Positions 5,434-60,159 of a stretch of DNA of 64,000 bases are shown here, piece by piece. Within the stretch, counting starts at the first letter, position 1, and every line of letters begins with the position of its first letter. Below the pieces are notes generated by a model that saw only the letters and a list, made by a program, of their open reading frames with translations, searched no databases and was not told where the DNA came from. A program made the position numbers and the translations under genes. The stretch covers positions 1 through 64,000 of the forward strand of contig BJHK01000011.1 in the NCBI GenBank assembly GCA_014192425.1. The letters run 5' to 3'. The stretch comes from Planctomycetia bacterium (GTDB taxonomy: Bacteria > Planctomycetota > Planctomycetia > Pirellulales > UBA1268).

Positions 5434-7269
5434 GTGATTCGCAAAGTTCTTTCCTGCCTGATGCCGGCCTGTGCCGTCGTCGCCCTGTGCACGAGCACGT
5501 GGGCGGCTGACTGCGGTGCCTGCGACGGCGGCTGTGCCGGTGGCTGCGAGAGCGGCGCCGTCGTCAGCGGTGGTTGTGAGGGTGGTTGTGGTGGTGCCTC
5601 CGCCGGCGCGGCCTGCGGCGGTACCAAGACGGTGTATCAGCGGCAGTACGTGACCGAGATGAAGACGGTCACGTCGACTGAGTACACCACCGAGACCCGC
5701 GAGCGGACCTACACGGTCACGAAGCGGGTTCCGCGGACCGAGACGAAGACCCGCACGGTCACCGTGCAGGTTCCCGAGACTCGGACCAAGACCGTGAACT
5801 ACACGGTCAACAAGAACGTGACGGAGACCAAGACGGCGGAGTACACCGTCCAGGTCCCGTACACCGAGGAGGTCGAGCAGACCTACACGGTTCACGTTCC
5901 GGTGTCCGAGGAGAAGACCGCGACCTACACGGTCATGGTTCCGAAGCAGGAAGAGAAGACCTCGACCTACTCGGTCCAGGTTCCCTACACCGAGGAGGTC
6001 GAGCAGACCTACACGGTGATGGTGCCCGTGTCGGAGGAGAAGTCCGCGTCCTACACGGTCCAGGTCCCGTACACCGAAGAGGTCGAGCAGACCTACACGG
6101 TGAACGTCCCGGTCCAGGAACAGAAGACCGCCACCTACACGGTGATGGTGCCCTACACCGAGGAGAAGGTTTCGACCTACACGGTGAAGGTTCCCTACAC
6201 CGAGCAGGTCGAGCAGACCTACACGGTGAACGTTCCCTACACCGAGCAGGTGACCCACACCCACAAGGTGCAGAAGCGGGTCCCGGTCCAGGGCACGAAG
6301 ACGGTGCAGGTCCGTGGCGGTCACTGGGAGACGCAGCAGGTCGAGGTCGGTGGCGGCGTCGACGCCAACGGCTGCCCCTGCCCGTCGAAGACCTGCTGCA
6401 AGCGGGTCTGGGTTCCCACGTGTGAGACCAAGGAAGTCCCCGTCACCACCTACGAGTGCGTGACCGAGGAGGTTCCCCACACGGTGAACGTGACCAAGTG
6501 CCGTCCGGAGCAGCGGAGCCGGATGGTCAGCGTGTCCAAGTGCCGTGACGAGGAGCGCACCCGGACCTACACGGTCACGAAGTGCCGCCCCGAGGAGCGG
6601 ACCCGGTCCTACACGGTCACCAAGTACGTGCCGGAGACGAAGAGCCGCAAGGTCTCCGTCACCAAGTACCGTGCCGAGGAGAAGACTCGGACGTACACGG
6701 TCACCAAGCACGTGCCGGAGACGAAGAGCCGCAAGGTCTCCGTCACCAAGTACCGTGCCGAGGAGCGGACCCGCAACTACACCGTCACGACCTGCGTGCC
6801 GGAGCAGCGGACCCGGACCTACACGGTCACCAAGCACGTTCCGGAGCAGAAGAGCCGGAAGGTGAGCGTCACCAAGTACAAGGCCGAGACCAAGACTCGG
6901 GAGTACCAGGTGACCAAGTGCGTGCCCGAGACGATGACCAAGGAGGTCTCGTACACGGTCATGGTCCCGCAGCAGAAGGAAGAGTCGTTCACCGTGACGG
7001 TGTATGACTCCGTCCCCGAGACGAAGACCGAGAGCTACTCGGTCCGCGTCCCCCACACGGTGACGAAGGAAGTGCCGGTGCAGAAGTGCGTCACGGTCGC
7101 CGTCGAGGTGGCTGCTGACGGCTGCGGTGCCGGTGCCGACGGTGCCGGCGCTGCCGGCGGCGAAGGTGCCTGCGGCGGCTGCGGCGACGCGGGTGCCGGT
7201 GGTGCTGCCGCCGGTGACTGCGGTGGCAAGGCGAAGGGCTGCCGTCGTGGCTGCCGTCGCTGCAAGTAA
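5434..7269 (+). CDS. Cysteine-rich YTV-repeat protein, planctomycete cell-envelope type
   Basis: An exported 611-aa structural protein. The GTG at 5434 is chosen: GGAGG sits at 5424-5428 with 5-nt spacing, and a signal peptide follows (about residues 1-24, ending in STWAA). The mature protein begins with a Cys/Gly-rich stretch (CGACDGGCAGGC...). It continues with dozens of short repeats built on (T/S)YTV, alternating with charged segments such as VPYTEEVEQT and VPETKSRKVSVTKY. It is broken by a Cys cluster near residue 310-325 (CPCPSKTCCKRV) and closes with another Cys-rich, then basic tail (GCRRGCRRCK). YTV domains with Cys-rich ends are known from planctomycete envelope proteins such as those of Rhodopirellula. 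The beta-strand repeats plus cysteines imply a disulphide-linked scaffold (inference). It is monocistronic, with its own leader and terminator. Confidence 0.88.
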   Translation: MIRKVLSCLMPACAVVALCTSTWAADCGACDGGCAGGCESGAVVSGGCEGGCGGASAGAACGGTKTVYQRQYVTEMKTVTSTEYTTETRERTYTVTKRVPRTETKTRTVTVQVPETRTKTVNYTVNKNVTETKTAEYTVQVPYTEEVEQTYTVHVPVSEEKTATYTVMVPKQEEKTSTYSVQVPYTEEVEQTYTVMVPVSEEKSASYTVQVPYTEEVEQTYTVNVPVQEQKTATYTVMVPYTEEKVSTYTVKVPYTEQVEQTYTVNVPYTEQVTHTHKVQKRVPVQGTKTVQVRGGHWETQQVEVGGGVDANGCPCPSKTCCKRVWVPTCETKEVPVTTYECVTEEVPHTVNVTKCRPEQRSRMVSVSKCRDEERTRTYTVTKCRPEERTRSYTVTKYVPETKSRKVSVTKYRAEEKTRTYTVTKHVPETKSRKVSVTKYRAEERTRNYTVTTCVPEQRTRTYTVTKHVPEQKSRKVSVTKYKAETKTREYQVTKCVPETMTKEVSYTVMVPQQKEESFTVTVYDSVPETKTESYSVRVPHTVTKEVPVQKCVTVAVEVAADGCGAGADGAGAAGGEGACGGCGDAGAGGAAAGDCGGKAKGCRRGCRRCK

Positions 7270-7302: not shown

Positions 7303-7344
7303 GGGGGGGCCGGACGACCGATCGTCCGGCCCCCCCGCTCTTTT
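7303..7344 (+). terminator. Rho-independent terminator of the YTV gene
   Basis: A perfect 15-bp stem (left arm 7303-7317, right arm 7322-7336) with a 4-nt loop CCGA is followed by GCTCTTTT. It lies 33 nt after the YTV stop codon. It is the clearest intrinsic terminator in the window. Confidence 0.92.
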
Positions 7345-7419
7345 CCGCCGGCGGGGCTGGTGCCCGGCGGCGGCGTCTGCTGAAATACCGCCGGTTCGAA
7401 CGCACCGGAGGCGGAAAGC

Positions 7420-24790: not shown

Positions 24791-25378
24791 ACAGCAGCAC
24801 CCGTCGGGCGGAGCCCGACGCTGGAGCCGGGCTATGCCCGGCGACCGTAAGCCGGCGCCGACGCCGGGACGGCGGCGCCGGCGCGAATACAGCAGCACCC
24901 GTCGGGCGGAGGCCGACGCTGGAGCCGGGCTATGCCCGGCGACCGTAAGCCGGCGCCGACGCCGGGACGGCGGCGCCGGCGCGAATACAGCAGCACCCGT
25001 CGGGCGGAGGCCGACGCTGGAGCCGGGCTATGCCCGGCGACCGTAAGCCGGCGCCGACGCCGGGACGGCGGCGCCGGCGCGAATACAGCAGCACCCGTCG
25101 GGCGGAGGCCGACGCTGGAGCCGGGCTATGCCCGGCGACCGTAAGCCGGCGCCGACGCCGGGACGGCGGCGCCGGCGCGAATACAGCAGCACCCGTCGGG
25201 CGGAGGCCGACGCTGGAGCCGGGCTATGCCCGGCGACCGTAAGCCGGCGCCGACGCCGGGACGGCGGCGCCGGCGCGAATACAGCAGCACCCGTCGGACG
25301 GAGGCCGACGCTGGAGCCGGGCTATGCCCGGCGACCGTAAGCCGGCGCCGACGCCGGGACGGCGGCGCCGGCGCGACA
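24791..25378 (+). repeat. Array of six 98-bp structured repeats
   Basis: Six tandem units start at 24791, 24889, 24987, 25085, 25183 and 25281. Each unit holds three hairpins, shown here for copy 1. First, CGTCGGGC / GCCCGACG (24802-24809, 24813-24820; 3-nt loop). Second, GCCGGGC / GCCCGGC (24826-24832, 24836-24842; loop TAT). Then the core CGTAAG (24846-24851), and third, GCCGGCGCCG / CGGCGCCGGC (24851-24860, 24873-24882). Copy 1 has a perfect first stem. Copies 2-6 share a C-to-G change in it, and copy 6 has one more. Copies 2-5 look identical, so expansion is recent. Copy 6 contains the stop codon and last codons of mfd on the other strand. The arginine-rich reading frame through the units is an artefact of composition. 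Confidence 0.95.
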
Positions 25379-28300
25379 ACACATCGCCCCGAGCAGGTCG
25401 AGAAGGGCGTCGTGGTCGCCCAAAACCTTCTCGTCGAGCGGCATCACGGCCGTCTTCTCGTCCACCGTTCGCAGCGGCCGACCGCGGGACGCGGCCCGCT
25501 CCGCCAGCCGCTCCATGCCCCGCCGGTCGTGGTGGCCGAAGAGAATCATCCCCGGATGCCGCTTGATCGAGTCGATGCCCAGAGCGGCCGCCGCGACCCG
25601 TAGCGCCGCGAAGGCCAGCAGCCGACGGACCGCCGCCGGGGGCGGGCCGAACCGGTCGGCGAGCTCCGCGGCCAGTTCCTCGACGTGCTGCGCGGTCGAG
25701 GCCCGCGACAGCCGCCGATAGACGTCGATCTTCGCCCGGAAGTCCGGCACGTAGTCCCGTGGCAGCCAGGCCTCACCCGCCAGGTCGACGTTCACCGGCG
25801 CCGGCTCCGCCGGCGGCAGGGCCTTGAGGCCGCGGACCGCCTGCTCGAGCAGCCGGCAGTAGAGCTCGTAGCCGACCGTGGCGATGTGACCGCTCTGCTG
25901 CGTGCCGAGCAGGTTGCCCGCCCCGCGGATCTCAAGGTCGCGCATCGCCAGCGAGAACCCCGCCCCCATGCTGGAAAACTCCTGAATCGCCCGGAGCCGC
26001 TTGGCGGCCGTGCTCGTCAGCCGGGCGGCCTCGTCCACCAGCAGATAGCACCAGGCCCGGTGATGCGACCGGCCGACGCGGCCGCGCAGCTGGTGCAGGT
26101 CGGCCAGGCCGTAGGTGTCGGCCTCGTCGATGAAGATCGTGTTCGCCCGGGGAATGTCGAGGCCGCTCTCGATGATCGTCGTGGCGAGAAGGATGTCGGT
26201 CGCGCCGCGGACGAAGGCCAGCATCGCCTCCTCCAGTTCCGCCTCCCCGAGCCGGCCGTGGACGATGCCGATCGTCGCCTCCGGCACGATCGCCGCCAGC
26301 CGCTGGGCCACCTTGTGGATGTCGTGGATCCGGTTGTGCACGAAGAACACCTGGCCTCCGCGGGCCAACTCGCGGTCGATCGCCCCGCGGATCAGGGCCG
26401 TGTCCCAGCGGGCGGCCCGGGTCTCGACCGGGATCCGCGTCGCCGGCGGCGTGGTCAGGTTGGAGATGTCGCGGATGCCGAGCATCGCCATGTGGAGCGT
26501 CCGCGGGATCGGCGTCGCGGTCATCGTCAGCACGTCCACGCTCGCCCGCAGGGCCTTGAGCCGCTCCTTGACGTCCACCCCGAACCGCTGCTCCTCGTCC
26601 ACGATCACCAGCCCGAGGTTGGCGAAGTGGATGTCGGCCTGGGCGAGGCGGTGCGTGCCGATGACGATGTCCACCGACTTGCGGGCCAGTCCCTCCAGCG
26701 TCTCGCGCTCCTCGGCCGTCGACGACAGCCGGGACAGGCAGCGGATCGTGAAGGGAAACTCCGCGAACCGGGCGGCGAACGTCCGCCGGTGCTGCTCGGC
26801 GAGCACCGTCGTCGGCACGAGCACCGCCACCTGCGCCCCCGCCTCCACCGCCTTGAAGGCGGCCCGCATGGCGAGCTCGGTCTTGCCGAAGCCGACGTCA
26901 CCGCACAGCAGTCGGTCCATTGGCCGCGGCCGCTGCAAGTCGCCCCGGATCGCCTCCATGGCCGTGAGCTGATCGGGCGTCTCCGCGAAGGGAAAGGCCT
27001 CCTCGAACTGACGCTGCCAGGGCGTGTCGGCGGGAAAGGCGACGCCCGGGCGGCTCTCCCGCGTGGCCTGGAGACGGATCATGTCGGCGGCCATGTCGGC
27101 CACCGCCCGCTCCACGGCGTGCTTCTGCTTCGCCCACAGCGTGCCGCCGATCTTGGCGAGCTTGGGGGCGAGCTTCCCGCCGCCGACGTATTTCTGCACC
27201 AGCTCGATGCACGAGGCGGGGACGTAGATCCGCGTATTTTCGGCGAACTCGATCTCCAGGAACTCCTCGGTGCGGCCATGCTTCTCCAGGAGCCGGAGGC
27301 CGCGGTAGCGGCCGATGCCGTGGGAGACGTGGACCACGTAGTCCCCCTCGTGCAGGTCGAGGAACGTGTCGATCGCCCGGGAGAGCCGCTGCCGCACCGG
27401 CCGGGCGATGCTGTCGTCGCGGTTGAAAAGCTCGGCGCTCGATACGATCACGATCTTTTCCGGCACGAGCCGGAAGCCCCCCGAGAGCCGGCCGCGGGCG
27501 AATGCCAGCCGCCCCGCGCGGGCCGGGGCCGACGTGGCGAGCAGTTCGCCGAGCCGCGCCTCTTCCGCCTCCGACGGGCAGACGATCCACACCTCCTGGT
27601 CGCGACCCACCGTCTCCAGCTCGTCCTTCACCCGGTCGAGGACCCCCGTGAACCGCTCCACGCTCTCGACCGACAGCGTGGCGGTGGCCTCCATGCTTGA
27701 CACCGCGATCGCGGACAGCGTCACCGACGGCAGCCGATAGAGACGGGCGAAGACGTCGTCGGGATCGAGGAGGACGGTTGCCCCGTCCGGCCGACGCATG
27801 CCGCCGAGCCGCTGCTGCATTCGCTTCGCCTCGGCGGCGAGCTCCCCGGGCTCGACGAGGGCGATCCGCGAGCCATCCGGCAGCAGTTCCGCCAGCTGCG
27901 TGCGGCGGCCGCCGCCGGTTTCGTGCCGCATCGCGAGCGCGGTCACGTCGATGGCCTCGATCGCGGCAACGCTCCGCTGCGAGACGAGGTCGAACGACCG
28001 CAGCCCCTCGATCTCGTCGCCGCACAGTTCCAGCCGCAGCGGCCGATCCCAGTCGGCCGCGAACAGGTCGACGATGCCACCGCGGCGGGCGAACTGCCCC
28101 GGCGCCTCGATGGCATCGACGGCCAGCCAGCCGCGCGTGCCGAGCCAGTCGGCGAGTTCCGCAGGGTCGAGCCGATCCCCCACGGCGAGTCGGCGGGTTC
28201 CGGCCTCGATCTCGCGCGGATCGGGGAGCGGCACGAGCAGCGCCTGGATGCTCGTCACCACCACCGCGGGTGCCGCGCCGCCCGCCAGCGCCAGCCGCTT

Positions 28301-28714
28301 GACGACCGCGAGGCGGGCGGCCACGGCGGGATCCTCGGTGTCGCCGGCGTCCTCCCCCGGATTCTCGGCGGCGGGCAGCAGGGCCGCGGCCGTGGTCGTG
28401 AACAGGGCGAGGTCGTCGAGGAACGCCTCCGCCTCGGCCGCATGGGGCAGGACGACAACCAGCGTCCCCGTGGGGTTGGCTCCGCTGCCCCGCGCCGCCC
28501 GGAGCAGTGCGGCCACGGCAAGCGCGGACGCCGATCCCCAGGTTCCGCCGATCGTCCCTCCGTGTCCCGCGCGGAGACTGGCGACGACGTCGGCGAACCC
28601 ACGATGGGAATCGATCGTTTCCGCCAGCCCGAGCAGTCGCCCGGGCCGGCCGGCTTCTTCGGAGGATGCCACTGGACCTCGCGTGAATCCGCGAGCCGAA
28701 CAGTATATCCGCAT
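25322..28714 (-). CDS. mfd: Transcription-repair coupling factor
   Basis: A DNA translocase that removes stalled RNA polymerase from lesions and recruits UvrA. An N-terminal UvrB-like region is followed by the RNAP-interacting CarD-like domain (LHEGDYVVHVSHGIGRYRGL). Next is a RecG-like helicase core with Walker A GDVGFGKTELA, DEEQ box VDEEQRFGV, motif III TMTATPIPRTL and motif VI QLRGRVGRSHHRAWCYLL. The TRCF C-terminal domain ends the protein. The start is uncertain: the only early ATG is at 28714, while a GTG at 28672 has a better GAGG site and a GTG at 28816 would overlap the upstream gene. The last 17 residues (after GAMCC) are encoded by copy 6 of the 98-bp repeat, so the native C-terminus has been replaced or extended. 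Confidence 0.95.
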   Translation of the reverse strand: MRIYCSARGFTRGPVASSEEAGRPGRLLGLAETIDSHRGFADVVASLRAGHGGTIGGTWGSASALAVAALLRAARGSGANPTGTLVVVLPHAAEAEAFLDDLALFTTTAAALLPAAENPGEDAGDTEDPAVAARLAVVKRLALAGGAAPAVVVTSIQALLVPLPDPREIEAGTRRLAVGDRLDPAELADWLGTRGWLAVDAIEAPGQFARRGGIVDLFAADWDRPLRLELCGDEIEGLRSFDLVSQRSVAAIEAIDVTALAMRHETGGGRRTQLAELLPDGSRIALVEPGELAAEAKRMQQRLGGMRRPDGATVLLDPDDVFARLYRLPSVTLSAIAVSSMEATATLSVESVERFTGVLDRVKDELETVGRDQEVWIVCPSEAEEARLGELLATSAPARAGRLAFARGRLSGGFRLVPEKIVIVSSAELFNRDDSIARPVRQRLSRAIDTFLDLHEGDYVVHVSHGIGRYRGLRLLEKHGRTEEFLEIEFAENTRIYVPASCIELVQKYVGGGKLAPKLAKIGGTLWAKQKHAVERAVADMAADMIRLQATRESRPGVAFPADTPWQRQFEEAFPFAETPDQLTAMEAIRGDLQRPRPMDRLLCGDVGFGKTELAMRAAFKAVEAGAQVAVLVPTTVLAEQHRRTFAARFAEFPFTIRCLSRLSSTAEERETLEGLARKSVDIVIGTHRLAQADIHFANLGLVIVDEEQRFGVDVKERLKALRASVDVLTMTATPIPRTLHMAMLGIRDISNLTTPPATRIPVETRAARWDTALIRGAIDRELARGGQVFFVHNRIHDIHKVAQRLAAIVPEATIGIVHGRLGEAELEEAMLAFVRGATDILLATTIIESGLDIPRANTIFIDEADTYGLADLHQLRGRVGRSHHRAWCYLLVDEAARLTSTAAKRLRAIQEFSSMGAGFSLAMRDLEIRGAGNLLGTQQSGHIATVGYELYCRLLEQAVRGLKALPPAEPAPVNVDLAGEAWLPRDYVPDFRAKIDVYRRLSRASTAQHVEELAAELADRFGPPPAAVRRLLAFAALRVAAAALGIDSIKRHPGMILFGHHDRRGMERLAERAASRGRPLRTVDEKTAVMPLDEKVLGDHDALLDLLGAMCCRAGAAVPASAPAYGRRA

Positions 28715-54990: not shown

Positions 54991-55313
54991 CGGACACCCC
55001 GCTCCGCGACCGGGGGCTGGCTGAGGGTGCATGGCAGTCGCCGACCACAGGCCGGAACCGTGGGCAAACCGGGCCGGAGGCGGCCCGAGCGGGGGCTGCG
55101 CAGGACTCCGGGAACCATCCGGGCTTGTAGCAGCCCGGCGGGAGACGGCTCCAGACCAGCTCCTGCGGCCGCTGGCCGGTACAGCCAGCCCAGCTTCTCC
55201 GGGCTTCCCCGGGCTGCGGGCTTGCAGCGCTGGCGGCGACCGCGATTATGGGGGTGGTTCTCCGCCGCCTCCGCACGACTGCGGACCGCTGCGGCAGGGA
55301 CGGCGGCAGCGTC
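54991..55313. other. 323-nt divergent intergenic region, no gene seen
   Basis: This gap separates the large exported protein (leftward) from the kinase-receiver protein (rightward). It must hold both promoters, but it is GC-rich and no convincing -35/-10 pair, operator palindrome or small gene with a ribosome site could be found. An in-frame 5' extension of the kinase to 55248 has no support. Confidence 0.5.
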
Positions 55314-56783
55314 ATGCACTCACTCACATCGGAGCAACTCGCGCAGGCGATCCTCGACCTCGAACTCGTTGCACCGCTGGAGCTGGAGACCGGGTTCCGT
55401 GAGGCCGGGGGCCGCGGCACGTCGGCGGAGGCCCTCGGTGCGGCGCTCGTGCGTCGGGAGCTCCTCACCGGCTACCAGATCGAGCGGCTCATGCGCGGCG
55501 ACCGGCGCGGATTCTTCTACGGTCGCAGCACGATCCTCTATCAGGTCGGGGCCGGGTCGTTCGCCCGCGTGTTTCGGGCCGTCGATCGGGACACCGGGAA
55601 GATCATCGCCGTCAAGGTGCTGCGCAGCCGGCACGCGAAAGACATCGAGCGGCAGCAGGCCTTTCGTCACGAGGGCGAGATGGGCCGCCTGCTCCGCCAT
55701 CCCAACATCGTCGCCATCGAGGAGGTCGGCGCGGAGCATGGCAGCAGTTACCTGACGATGGAGTTCGTCGAGGGGCAGACGCTGCGCGAGCTGGTCAAGC
55801 TCCGGGGGGCGGTCGACCTGCCGCGGGCGCTCGACCTGATCCAACAGCTGGCCGCCGGGCTGGAGTACGCCCATCGGCGTGGTGTCACCCACCGCGACCT
55901 GAAAGCCTCCAACGTGCTCGTCTCGTCAGCGGGCCGGGCCAAGCTCGTTGATTTCGGCCTCGCCGGGATCGACGAGACCGGCGACGCCTTGCTGGGCCGG
56001 ATCGATCAGCCGCGGACGATCGATTACGCGGCCCTCGAGAAGCTCACGGGGATGCAGGACGATTGCGCTCGCAGCGACATCTTCTTCTTCGGCACGCTGG
56101 CACAGCTCGTGCTCACGGGCCAGCCGACGCTGGCCGAAACCCGGGACCGCAGCCAGCGAAGCGACCCGGGTCGGTTCCAGAGGATCGTGCCGCTGGCGAC
56201 CCGGGCGCCCCACCTGCCGCGGGACGTCATCGAAACGATTGGCCGGATGACGCTGCTCGATCCGCTGGAGCGCTGGCAGACGGTGGCCGACGTGCGCCGG
56301 GCCGTGGAGCAGCTGGCCGAAGCGCACGTCGGGGGGGGGGATGCGTCGCCGGCGGCGGCGCTGCCCTCCGGCGGCCCCGCGCCGACGATGAAGGGGACGC
56401 TGATGCTCGTCGAGCCGGGCGAGACCGCGCAGCGGTCCTTCCGGGAGTTTTTCAACGCCCTTGGCTATCGCGTCCTCGTCACGGGCAACCCGCGGCGTGC
56501 CCTGACGATATGCGACGCGCGGAACCGATCGGTCGACTGTCTCGTGCTCAGCAGTCACGCGTTGGGCAACGAGGCGGTCGAGGCCTTCAATGCGTTGTCG
56601 GCTGATCCTGCCTACGCCACTCTGCCCGCGGTGCTGGTGGCTGGGGAGACGCAGACAGCTGTCGATGCGATGGCGCGGGTCGACGCGTTGCGCCGGGTCA
56701 CGCGGTTGCCGATCCGCAAGCGGGAGTTCGCCTGTCTGCTCGAGGAGTTGCTCGGCGCGCCGCGCAAGCCCGATCCGGCGTGA
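55314..56783 (+). CDS. Serine/threonine protein kinase with C-terminal degenerate receiver domain
   Basis: A 489-aa cytosolic kinase. An N-terminal helical segment (1-70, SEQLAQAILDLELVAPLELE ... YQIERLMRGDRRGF) resembles the small regions preceding many planctomycete kinases. The catalytic domain has a proper Gly loop VGAGSFARVF (78-87), K101, HRD 193-195 with N200 and DFG 213-216. The activation segment is atypical (RTIDYAALEKLTGMQDDCAR, no clean APE). After a Gly/Ala linker, residues 361-480 fold like a response-regulator receiver (GTLMLVEPGETAQRSFREFF, LGYRVLVTGNPRRALTICDA, LPAVLVAGE). The phospho-acceptor Asp is replaced by Ser (CLVLSSHALG) and the acidic pair is reduced to a Glu. So it is a pseudo-receiver, probably a protein-protein interaction module. 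Confidence 0.87.
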   Translation: MHSLTSEQLAQAILDLELVAPLELETGFREAGGRGTSAEALGAALVRRELLTGYQIERLMRGDRRGFFYGRSTILYQVGAGSFARVFRAVDRDTGKIIAVKVLRSRHAKDIERQQAFRHEGEMGRLLRHPNIVAIEEVGAEHGSSYLTMEFVEGQTLRELVKLRGAVDLPRALDLIQQLAAGLEYAHRRGVTHRDLKASNVLVSSAGRAKLVDFGLAGIDETGDALLGRIDQPRTIDYAALEKLTGMQDDCARSDIFFFGTLAQLVLTGQPTLAETRDRSQRSDPGRFQRIVPLATRAPHLPRDVIETIGRMTLLDPLERWQTVADVRRAVEQLAEAHVGGGDASPAAALPSGGPAPTMKGTLMLVEPGETAQRSFREFFNALGYRVLVTGNPRRALTICDARNRSVDCLVLSSHALGNEAVEAFNALSADPAYATLPAVLVAGETQTAVDAMARVDALRRVTRLPIRKREFACLLEELLGAPRKPDPA

Positions 56784-56887
56784 CCGCACGCCGTCCCGGC
56801 GGCCCGTTGGCGTGCCCAGTAACGCGCTTAATCGCACGCAGCGGGCTGTGATCACGCAGCCCGTCGGCGACGGCCTCCGTCTGCTTT

Positions 56888-56929
56888 GCGAGCTTCGCTC
56901 GCTCTCGTAAGGCCGCCCTCCAGGCGGCC
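56888..56929 (+). repeat. Solitary double-hairpin unit related to the repeat family
   Basis: Hairpin GCGAGC / GCTCGC (56888-56893, 56897-56902, loop TTC), 3-nt spacer TCT, core CGTAAG (56906-56911), then hairpin GGCCGCC / GGCGGCC (56911-56917, 56923-56929). The geometry equals that of the 98-bp units. The rest of 56784-57004 holds a further GC hairpin (GGGCTG...CAGCCC) and no gene. Confidence 0.6.
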
Positions 56930-57004
56930 AGTTGGGCGCGCCCACCCGCACGGGCCCAGCGCTGCAACGACGCCCGGCTGGAGGCCGGGCGGCTCGGCGC
57001 GGCG

Positions 57005-57262
57005 AACCTTGGCTTCGCCCCGCCGAGCGTAAGCCTGTCGGGGCCATGGATGGCCCGACAGGCGCGATATACAGAACCTTGGCTTCGCCCCGCCGAGCGT
57101 AAGCCTGTCGGGGCCATGGATGGCCCGACAGGCGCGATATACAGAACCTTGGCTTCGCCCCGCCGAGCGTAAGCCTGCGAGGGCCAGGATGGCCTCGCAG
57201 GCGCGATACACAGAGCGTAAGCCTGTCGGGGCCATGGATGGCCCGACAGGCGCTCTATTCAG
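57005..57262 (+). repeat. Array of 70-bp structured repeats, 3.7 copies
   Basis: Units at 57005-57074, 57075-57144, 57145-57213 and a 5'-truncated one at 57214-57262. Each has AACCTTGGCTTCGCCCCGCC, then GAGCGTAAG, a hairpin with 10-bp arms, and GGCGCGATATACAG. In copies 1, 2 and 4 the arms are GCCTGTCGGG / CCCGACAGGC. In copy 3 they are GCCTGCGAGG / CCTCGCAGGC: three base pairs differ and all three are compensated. The last unit ends in ATTCAG, which overlaps the stop codon of the Rrf2 gene on the other strand. Related to the 98-bp array at 24791-25378 by the core and tail motifs. Confidence 0.93.
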
Positions 57263-57693
57263 ATGTAATACATCGCATCGCCGGACCGGCAGCGGGCCGT
57301 GAGGTCGGCGAGCGTGGTGCCGCGGAGAACATCCGCCTCCGCGCGGGCTGCCGCTTCCCACGTCTCGACCAGCAGCCCCGCCAGCCGCGACCGCTGCCCA
57401 AGCGCGACGCTGACCGGGGCCACGTCCGTGCCCGGCCCCTCGATTGCCACGCGCAGGTCCTCGAGCGTGATCTCCTCCGGATGCCGGGCGAGACGGTAGC
57501 CGCCAGCCGCGCCGCGGACGCTGGCCACGATGCCGGCGTGCTTGAGCCGGAGCAGGATGTGGACGAGGAACCGGGCCGGCACGCCCTGCGCCGCGCAGAT
57601 TTCGCGGATCCTCACCGGCTCCTCCGCCTGCCAGTGCCGGGCCAGTTCCAGCGCGGCGATGGCGGCATACTCGGTGCGGGCGGACAGTCGCAT
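57259..57693 (-). CDS. Rrf2-family transcriptional regulator
   Basis: A 144-aa Rrf2 regulator. The winged-helix region reads MRLSARTEYAAIAALELARH, then RIREICAAQGVPARFLVHIL, and the wing is ASVRGAAGGYRLARHPEEIT. The dimerisation helix follows (LAGLLVETWEAAARAEADVL). It lacks the three-Cys cluster that binds Fe-S in IscR/NsrR: only two Cys are present and neither is in the cluster position. It is therefore probably a CymR-like type whose activity depends on a protein or metabolite. It lies 23 nt downstream of cysH on the same strand and is likely co-transcribed, suggesting control of sulfate assimilation. The stop (complement 57259-57261) lies in the end of the repeat array. Confidence 0.88.
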   Translation of the reverse strand: MRLSARTEYAAIAALELARHWQAEEPVRIREICAAQGVPARFLVHILLRLKHAGIVASVRGAAGGYRLARHPEEITLEDLRVAIEGPGTDVAPVSVALGQRSRLAGLLVETWEAAARAEADVLRGTTLADLTARCRSGDAMYYI

Positions 57694-57716
57694 CGCGTCC
57701 TCGGTTCTGGCGGGCC

Positions 57717-58469
57717 TCAGTGGCCCCCGGTGTGCAGGCCGCACTCCGTCTTGGCCGTGCCGCTCCAGCGGCCGGCCCGTTCGTCCTCGCCGAACGTGAT
57801 CGCCCGGGTGCAGGGCGCGCAGCCGATGCTCACATACCCCTGGTCGTGCAGCGGGTTGTAGGGCACGTCGTGCTTGACGATGGCGTCCCAGACCCTGGCC
57901 TTCGTCCAGGTGGCGAGCGGCGAAATCTTGACGACGCCGAACTTGTGGTCCCAGCCGACGATCGGCGCCGTGGCGCGATCGGGGCTCTGGTCGCGGCGGA
58001 TGGCGGTCATCCAGGCTTCGAAGCCCGCCAGCACGCGGCGCACGACGGCGAGTTTGCGATCGGCGCAGCAGCGGTCGGGGTCTGTGCGGTAGAGCGGACC
58101 GCCATGCAGCCGCTCGTAGTCGGCCACGGGCGAGTCGGGTCGCTCCAGCACCACTTCGATGCCGTAGCGGGCCGCGATCCGGTCGCGGAGTTCGAGCGTC
58201 TCGCGAAACTGGTAGCCCGTGTCGAGATTGAACACGTGCATGCCCGGCGCGACCGTCGCGATCCAATGAAGGATCAGGCAGCCCTCGGGGCCGAAAGCCG
58301 TGGCCATGGTCAGCCCGGTCCCGAATCGCTCCCACGCCCAGCGGATGATCTCCGCAGGCTCGGCCGACTCGAGCTTGCGGCTGGCCTCGGCCAGTTCGGC
58401 GCGGACCGCCGCCGAGGCCTCGGCCACAGGGCCGCCCGCCGCTGCTGGGCCGACAGAGGCGTTCGCCAC
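57717..58469 (-). CDS. cysH: Phosphoadenylyl-/adenylyl-sulfate reductase
   Basis: A 250-aa reductase making sulfite from adenylyl sulfate or PAPS with thioredoxin. GTG at complement 58467-58469 has AAGGAT upstream; a TTG at 58517 would add 16 residues. The PP-loop ATPase-like fold shows ATAFGPEGCLILHWI (about 57-71), VFNLDTGYQFRETLELRDRI, and VGWDHKFGVVKISPLATW. Four Cys of the [4Fe-4S] type are present: RCCADRK (134-135) and GCAPCTR (217, 220). The catalytic Cys is in the C-terminal TECGLH (C243). The four-Cys cluster points to the APS-reductase class. It is divergent from rhamnulokinase and upstream of the Rrf2 gene. Confidence 0.93.
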   Translation of the reverse strand: MANASVGPAAAGGPVAEASAAVRAELAEASRKLESAEPAEIIRWAWERFGTGLTMATAFGPEGCLILHWIATVAPGMHVFNLDTGYQFRETLELRDRIAARYGIEVVLERPDSPVADYERLHGGPLYRTDPDRCCADRKLAVVRRVLAGFEAWMTAIRRDQSPDRATAPIVGWDHKFGVVKISPLATWTKARVWDAIVKHDVPYNPLHDQGYVSIGCAPCTRAITFGEDERAGRWSGTAKTECGLHTGGH

Positions 58470-58686
58470 GATCAAATCCTTACAAAAGTGGTCATGTATG
58501 AGAGGTATGATAGCCAACCGCCGGCTTCATCGGCAGCCTGTGCATCGCGGACGCAGCAACGGCCGCTGAAACCGGCAGACTCGCCCCCTTTTCGCCCCCC
58601 TCTCCCCCTTTTCGCCCCATTGTCCGATCATGCCGGGCAGCGGTGTCCCGCGACCGACGCGGGGCCGTTCGTGGAGGAGGCTCGGC

Positions 58687-60159
58687 ATGGCGCGCAGCGT
58701 CGCATTGGCGGTCGATCTCGGGGCGTCCGGAGGCAGGGTGCTGTCGGGCGCGTTCGACGGACGGATCCTGGAACTCGAGGAACTCCACCGCTTCGACAAC
58801 CAGCCGCTGCCGTTCGGCGGCCGCCTCGTCTGGGACCTGCCGCTCCTGTGGCGCGAGGTGGTGGCCGGCCTGCGGCTGGCGGCGCAGCGGCACGGCCGCG
58901 CCGTCGCCAGCGTCGGCGTCGATACCTGGGGCGTGGACTTCGCCTTTCTGGGCGCCGACGGCGACCTGCTCGCCAATCCGCTCTGCTACCGCGACCCGCA
59001 GACGCGCGGCATGCTCGCCGCGGCGGAGCGGACCGTGCCGCGGGCCGACATCTTCGCCGCCACGGGGCTGCAGTTCATGGAGATCAACTCTCTCTACCAG
59101 CTGCTGGCGATGCAGGCGCGCGGGTCGACGGCGCTGGCCTCCGCCGCCCGGCTGCTGATGATCCCCGACCTGTTCCATTGGCTTCTCAGTGGCGAGGCAT
59201 CGAACGAGCGGACCAACGCCTCCACCACGCAGTGCTTCGATCCGCGCACGGGCGACTGGGCGTTTCCGCTCCTCGAGCGATTCGGCCTGCCGCGGCTGAT
59301 CTTCGCACCGATCGCCGCGCCGGGCACGAGCCTCGGCGGCCTGCGGCGCGAGGTCGCGGAGGAGACCGGTCTGGCCGGAGTCCGCGTCCTCCTCCCCGGC
59401 ACGCACGACACGGCCAGCGCCGTGGCAGCCGTGCCGGCCCTCGACCCGCCGAGCAGCCGGCCCGACTGGTGCTACGTCAGCCTCGGCACCTGGGCGCTGG
59501 TGGGCGCCGAACTCGACCAACCGCTGATCACGCCCGCGTGCCTGGCCCACAACTTCACCAACGAGGCCGGCGTCGGCGGCACCACCCGGCTCTTGAAGAA
59601 CGTCTGCGGCCTGTGGCTCGTGCAGCAGTGCCGGGCCGCCTGGCAGCGCGAGGGGAAGGGTTGGACCTGGGACCAGCTCACGGCGCTGGCAGCAGAGGCC
59701 GCCCCGCTGCGCACCATCATCGATCCCGATCACCCCGCCCTCGTCGCCCCGGCCGACATGCCGGCCGCGATCCGCATTCTGGCCCGGGAGACGGGGGAAC
59801 CGGTGCCGGAGACGACGGCCGCCGTCGTGCGCACGGCGCTGGAGAGCGTGGCTGCCGCGATCCGCCGGACGCTCGGCCGGCTCGACGCCCTGCTCGGTCG
59901 CCGGGTCGGCACCGTCCACGTGGTCGGCGGCGGCGTCCGCAACCGGCTCCTCTGCCAGATGATCGCCGATGCCACCGGCCGACCGGTCATCGCCGGCCCC
60001 GTCGAGGCCACGGCGATCGGCAACCTCCTCGTCCAGGTCGCGGCCCGCGAGGGGGCCGTCGACCTGCGGGCGCTGCGGGCGATCGTTCGCGACAGCTTCG
60101 AGCTCGATCGCTACGAGCCCGGCGACGCCGGCGCCTGGCAGGCACGGCTCGGCGGCTGA
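58687..60159 (+). CDS. rhaB: Rhamnulokinase (FGGY family)
   Basis: A 490-aa FGGY carbohydrate kinase. The ATP-binding start is AVDLGASGGRVLSGAFDGRI, and the sugar-site region reads SVGVDTWGVDFAFLGADGDL and MEINSLYQLLAM. RhaB-like segments include LLMIPDLFHWLLSGEASNER, LLPGTHDTASAVAAVPA (catalytic Asp) and VHVVGGGVRNRLLCQMIADA near the C-terminus. RhaB phosphorylates L-rhamnulose for entry to glycolysis; fucose/rhamnose use is widespread in planctomycetes. ATG at 58687 has GGAGGAGG a few nt upstream. No rhaA, rhaD or transporter gene is adjacent, so the pathway is dispersed. Confidence 0.88.
   Translation: MARSVALAVDLGASGGRVLSGAFDGRILELEELHRFDNQPLPFGGRLVWDLPLLWREVVAGLRLAAQRHGRAVASVGVDTWGVDFAFLGADGDLLANPLCYRDPQTRGMLAAAERTVPRADIFAATGLQFMEINSLYQLLAMQARGSTALASAARLLMIPDLFHWLLSGEASNERTNASTTQCFDPRTGDWAFPLLERFGLPRLIFAPIAAPGTSLGGLRREVAEETGLAGVRVLLPGTHDTASAVAAVPALDPPSSRPDWCYVSLGTWALVGAELDQPLITPACLAHNFTNEAGVGGTTRLLKNVCGLWLVQQCRAAWQREGKGWTWDQLTALAAEAAPLRTIIDPDHPALVAPADMPAAIRILARETGEPVPETTAAVVRTALESVAAAIRRTLGRLDALLGRRVGTVHVVGGGVRNRLLCQMIADATGRPVIAGPVEATAIGNLLVQVAAREGAVDLRALRAIVRDSFELDRYEPGDAGAWQARLGG

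Follow-up and report, generated by a model that had tools for sequence, protein, structure and literature searches.

The window (the whole 64,000-nt stretch of planctomycete DNA analysed here) contains at about positions 57004-57262 a short array of hairpins, and in its third copy several adjacent base pairs of the stem are changed with pairing retained. This locus raises the question of whether the change reflects selection for the hairpin itself or copying from another member of a repeat family, which were the two readings offered when the letters alone were inspected (the sequence-only reading).

The array and its surroundings

The array consists of four hairpins with a spacing of 70, 70 and 48 bp. 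The usual stem reads GCCTGTCGGG/CCCGACAGGC on the plus strand and is found at 57033-57063, 57103-57133 and 57221-57251, while copy 3 carries the variant GCCTGCGAGG/CCTCGCAGGC (57173-57182 with 57193-57202). We confirmed at 57173-57202 that three adjacent pairs have changed in a stem that is still perfectly paired. The extent of the earlier description needed revision: instead of 10 bp closing an 11-nt loop, the minus-strand hairpin has 13 bp, a single extrahelical C and a loop of TCC or TCCA. Outside the stem, copy 3 differs from copies 1 and 2 in a loop that is one base shorter and in the flank, which is CGATACACAG and not CGATATACAG. The features, in the sense of the upstream gene, are:

57259-57693, minus strand: Rrf2-type regulator gene, upstream in the element sense, ending ...AMYYI, with a TGA stop codon at 57259-57261
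57221-57251, minus strand: first hairpin (HP1) of copy 4, usual stem, adjoining the Rrf2 gene 6-7 nt past its stop codon
57173-57202, minus strand: HP1 of copy 3, variant stem, loop TCC, same variant at two loci on contig C15
57103-57133, minus strand: HP1 of copy 2, usual stem
57033-57063, minus strand: HP1 of copy 1, belonging to the only complete module
56992-57028, minus strand: complete second hairpin (HP2), loop GCCAAGG
56972-56990, minus strand: third hairpin (HP3), stem GCCCGGC, loop CTCCA
24795-25386, minus strand: diverged second array sharing this plan, composed of six units of ~98 bp and with HP1-like hairpins that have a TCC loop

Only the leftmost copy of the array (copy 1) has a complete second hairpin and a third hairpin after HP1, and this complete module folds with z = -6.8 (RNA) and -7.9 (DNA) compared with dinucleotide shuffles. 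The 5′ half of HP2 alone is repeated at 57074-57098 and 57144-57168. At the second array, the stop codon of the minus-strand ORF 25322-28516 lies inside the gene-nearest unit, so the protein reads through the first hairpin of that unit.

Origin of the variant stem in copy 3

The block of copies 3 and 4 (57144-57262, 119 bp) was found again in the same genome, at G000:C15:78061-78179 with 98% identity and at C15:13433-13549 with 91% identity, and at the C15 loci the variant stem was accompanied by the same linked changes (shorter loop and different flank). Because the block recurs elsewhere together with its changes outside the stem, the variant of copy 3 was most likely copied between family members, and copy 3 thus provides no evidence for compensatory mutation in place. 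The perfect pairing of the copy 3 stem would fit three compensating mutations having arisen within the array, but with two other loci holding the same variant block and the same non-stem changes we consider such an origin extremely improbable unless those loci received their block from this array, and the interpretation of the variant as a local compensatory change was abandoned. Of the two original alternatives, copying therefore accounts for the array, and constraint on the hairpin is found at the level of the family.

The hairpins belong to a family of ~100-nt elements

In the gene sense (the minus strand at the array), the full module is ~100 nt long and consists of HP1, HP2 and HP3 in that order, with HP1 having the loop UCC[A] and the extrahelical C, HP2 the loop GCCAAGG and HP3 the loop NUCCN; the spacer between HP1 and HP2 is short (UUG or UUAC). 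TCC was present in the HP3 loop of 82 of the 109 hairpins found, compared with 11 of 120 in control windows. A covariance model built on the first two hairpins (R1) detected at least 59 places at E<=0.001 in the window's genome, and gave copies in 18 of 146 genomes sampled from the order, all 18 being members of the window's own family. Among 294 genomes sampled across the phylum, copies were detected in the window's genome only. A pattern scan of named genomes mostly matched uncultured Planctomycetaceae or Planctomycetota MAGs, while pattern matches in Desulfosporosinus scored only 17-22 bits with the covariance model and were taken as unrelated. As sampled, the element family is confined to one planctomycete family. 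Copy counts are lower bounds and the copies used were the best-scoring ones; many MAG contigs of the relatives end inside or beside an element, as is expected if repeats break assemblies, so that copy numbers are underestimated. One pattern match was located on a viral contig (L364), and one element apparently lies within an ORF without a stop codon at its left end (L074, G000:C1:251775-251861). No published description of the element was found in the literature searched, which was covered incompletely.

Stem pairing suggests constraint at the DNA level

Relatives supplied 108 distinct copies, and in their alignment 95.6% of stem cells pair and 792 changes are double-sided; although this alignment was fitted to the model, which favours structure, the effect is bounded by a control in which partners were slid by 1-3 columns and only 33-45% paired. 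Conservation reaches 94-99% in most columns of the loops and extrahelical C, the latter being present in 94% of the copies, whereas stems vary. The sequence-only reading would have given way had one-sided, stem-breaking changes occurred at neutral frequency, and this result contradicts neutrality. The alignments strongly support a hairpin that is constrained at the family level.

The type of pairing is unlike that of ordinary RNA. Selection for RNA pairing on the sense strand would be expected to let G-U through far more readily than A-C. Among the relatives' aligned copies, however, 31 G-T pairs stood against 33 A-C mismatches; well-aligned copies from both alignments gave 23 against 36, and the own-genome alignment alone was less clear-cut (24 versus 14). 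The stems of 37 tRNAs, mostly from the own genome with a few from relatives and with the register chosen to give most Watson-Crick pairs, gave 29 versus 2 (Fisher p about 1e-5). Since G-T is no commoner than A-C, in contrast to tRNAs, the constraint appears DNA-like and does not resemble ordinary RNA covariation, and the stems look like DNA palindromes, hairpins needed on both strands, or palindromes repaired by template switching.

Many copies are positioned directly behind stop codons

Gene prediction by codon usage, trained on the window, placed 141 of 147 distinct copies (at least 147 exist; these are the best-scoring) behind a gene on the same strand. Of the 147, 47 have HP1 at 6 nt from the stop codon and 34 at 7 nt, and for 84 the distance is 5-7 nt. 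This spacing prompted consideration of programmed stop readthrough, a reading that was not adopted. The last residue of these 84 genes was Phe in 36 (43%, against a background of 2.3%), and their stop codons were TAG in 36, TGA in 31 and TAA in 17 cases (background 64, 177 and 22). Orthologues without the element mostly have the same or similar native end codons, and the bias in last and stop codons therefore reflects placement of the element and not addition to the protein. An NNCTRR flank was also present in 15 of the 63 copies located away from stop codons, compared with 2.2% in the intergenic background, and a flank bias toward (T)TC-TRR stands beside the comparison of occupied and empty sites, in which the unit ends are placed approximately.

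Genes downstream of the element were codirectional in 52 and convergent in 42 cases; codirectional neighbours being as frequent, a role as bidirectional terminator between convergent genes was rejected. The idea that such a hairpin ends genes generally in this genome was likewise rejected, as most gene ends in the window have no comparable hairpin.

Orthologous sites with and without the element

Elements were shared at orthologous gene ends across genera in 82 locus pairs, against 2.0 expected under independent placement of the best-scoring copies over 3300 genes, all taken as equal targets. If only genes with suitable last codons counted as targets, this expectation would rise several-fold, but not to 82. 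Proteins at the shared sites had a mean identity of 80%, whereas the elements themselves had an identity of 0.67-0.68, hardly above the 0.63 of unrelated copies.

Other sites are polymorphic. At the GCDANF locus, a unit of ~100 nt is present at the stop codon in relative G114 and absent from G134, G175 and G169, with homology on both sides of the unit across the compared genomes. The Rrf2 site has the full element in the window's genome and in G089, and shorter relatives of it in G114 and G155, while most other genomes are without it. A second Rrf2 paralogue in the window's genome (L303, G000:C39:14580-15005; 84% identical, near a contig end) has no element after its stop codon. From sequence comparison, these loci show the element as a discrete unit, polymorphic for presence and absence, whether by gain or by loss.

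Origin and possible role of the element

The anchoring to stop codons on the sense strand, the conserved loops, the covarying helices and the sharing of the element by orthologous genes would all suit a structured 3′ UTR RNA with a role in regulation, stability or termination, maintained by RNA-level selection on the sense strand and inherited vertically. We consider this unlikely, as G-U is not preferred over A-C, the unit is discrete and either present or absent, and window positions 55000-59000 had no match in Rfam at E up to 1. The hairpin also lacks a T run, and canonical terminators occur with equal frequency at genes with the element (5/82) and at the others (16/371). That the hairpin is not selected at all, and that template-switch repair and gene conversion alone keep the inverted repeats perfect, has a known mechanism behind it, template switching being a documented source of multi-base compensatory changes (PMC8794818), and would account for the near-perfect Watson-Crick pairing, the absence of wobble intermediates, the concerted multi-base changes and the block copying. 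Simple repair would erase a bulge, and the extrahelical C thus counts against this explanation, as do the conserved loops and the retention of the element at orthologous sites, making it less probable than a structured RNA and, in our view, improbable altogether.

True REPs moved by a RAYT (Y1) transposase would be dispersed and clustered palindromes close to stop codons, as seen here, and the window's genome does contain one Y1_Tnp gene. Such genes were detected in only 9 of the 22 genomes of the genus and are absent from several element-rich ones, no copies flanked Y1 genes except for one at a distance of ~500 bp from a weak match to Y1, and the aligned flanks are without the tag expected of REPs, all of which makes RAYT-driven movement very improbable; barring RAYT genes missing from the assemblies, it is largely refuted for these genomes.

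The reading that we prefer, with slightly better than even confidence, is that the array is a tandemly expanded, REP-like palindromic element, spread by a hairpin-recognising mechanism and kept as a 3′ UTR hairpin. The element is a DNA module of ~100 nt with three hairpins, fixed loops and freely varying complementary stems, and its spread would involve recognition of the hairpin, probably in single-stranded form, by a mechanism reading the loops and extrahelical base and not the stem sequence. With Y1_Tnp considered as the mover, the incomplete MAGs included several element-rich genomes without it and yielded no flanking copies. Turnover of stems with retained complementarity would come from copying between family members, as supported for copy 3, with a probable contribution of template-switch repair acting on inverted repeats. 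A purely mobile element would not be expected to be strictly retained at orthologous sites, which would count against this preferred reading.

Once in place, the element would form the first hairpin of the host mRNA 3′ UTR, 6-7 nt past the stop codon. In E. coli, REPs located within 15 nt of stop codons can influence how the gene before them is translated (PMC12306157), and by analogy the element may act in a similar way, through ribosome stalling and as a barrier to 3′ exonucleases, a role that we propose tentatively. More speculatively, and with a rather low probability, it could represent a new class of DNA element with recognition of loops and extrahelical base, uninformative stems and stop-guided placement, domesticated as a hairpin right at the start of the 3′ UTR in housekeeping mRNAs throughout the family.

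Compensatory changes are commonly accepted as proving a functional RNA, and here the stems at orthologous positions show almost complete turnover. The missing G-U preference points to DNA-level constraint or templated repair, and advises caution when covariation within repeats is interpreted as selection on RNA. The data set makes the upkeep of perfect inverted repeats testable in bacteria, and if the anchoring to stop codons is functional, it would constitute a lineage-wide 3′ UTR device of which we found no description.

Comparison with known systems

Like intrinsic terminators, the element places a strong GC-rich hairpin just past a gene; unlike them it is not followed by a T run, and the genome has canonical terminators besides. 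A function as canonical terminator was rejected on the missing T run and on terminators not being replaced at element genes. One canonical intrinsic terminator (7303-7345, 15-bp stem and T run) follows the gene at 5461-7269, and the genome thus uses ordinary terminators too. On the antisense strand, the HP1 and HP3 loops contain a CsrA-like GGA, and four CsrA genes were located (G000:C5:27343, C5:1532, C2:152533 and C20:39349); a CsrA sponge was set aside, as the GGA strand is not the stop-anchored one and HP2 has no GGA.

Integron attC sites lie past a stop codon and are single-strand hairpins with extrahelical bases, in which structure matters more than sequence. The element similarly lies behind a stop codon and has a hairpin with an extrahelical base, but it is dispersed beside housekeeping genes and not arranged in cassette arrays, and its presence at dispersed single loci next to such genes makes an attC identity unlikely. 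The element resembles the PATEs, non-autonomous elements of the IS200/IS605 type, which likewise have a terminal hairpin, an extrahelical base in it and a preference for a short left flank. It differs from them in that no parent element or transposase was found in many element-rich genomes. Among PATEs, stem sequences should be common to the copies, whereas the stems of the element vary, and no copies were found at the ends of Y1 genes that would indicate ends shared with an autonomous Y1-encoding element.

The closest resemblance is to REP/BIME palindromes, which are short, dispersed, often tandem and extragenic (PMC3733652). The element shares with them its short, dispersed, multi-copy extragenic palindromes, often in tandem and just past stop codons. 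No GTAG or CGTC tag was present at the hairpin end, where the aligned flanks read NTTNCAC upstream and TTG downstream, and no RAYT (Y1) gene flanked by element copies was found in the incomplete MAGs; failing these two tests, the element was not filed as a REP despite its position and palindromy. It further differs from REP/BIME in having three hairpins in a fixed order, with conserved loops and free stems, in its much tighter spacing to the stop codon, and in being shared at orthologous genes throughout the family.
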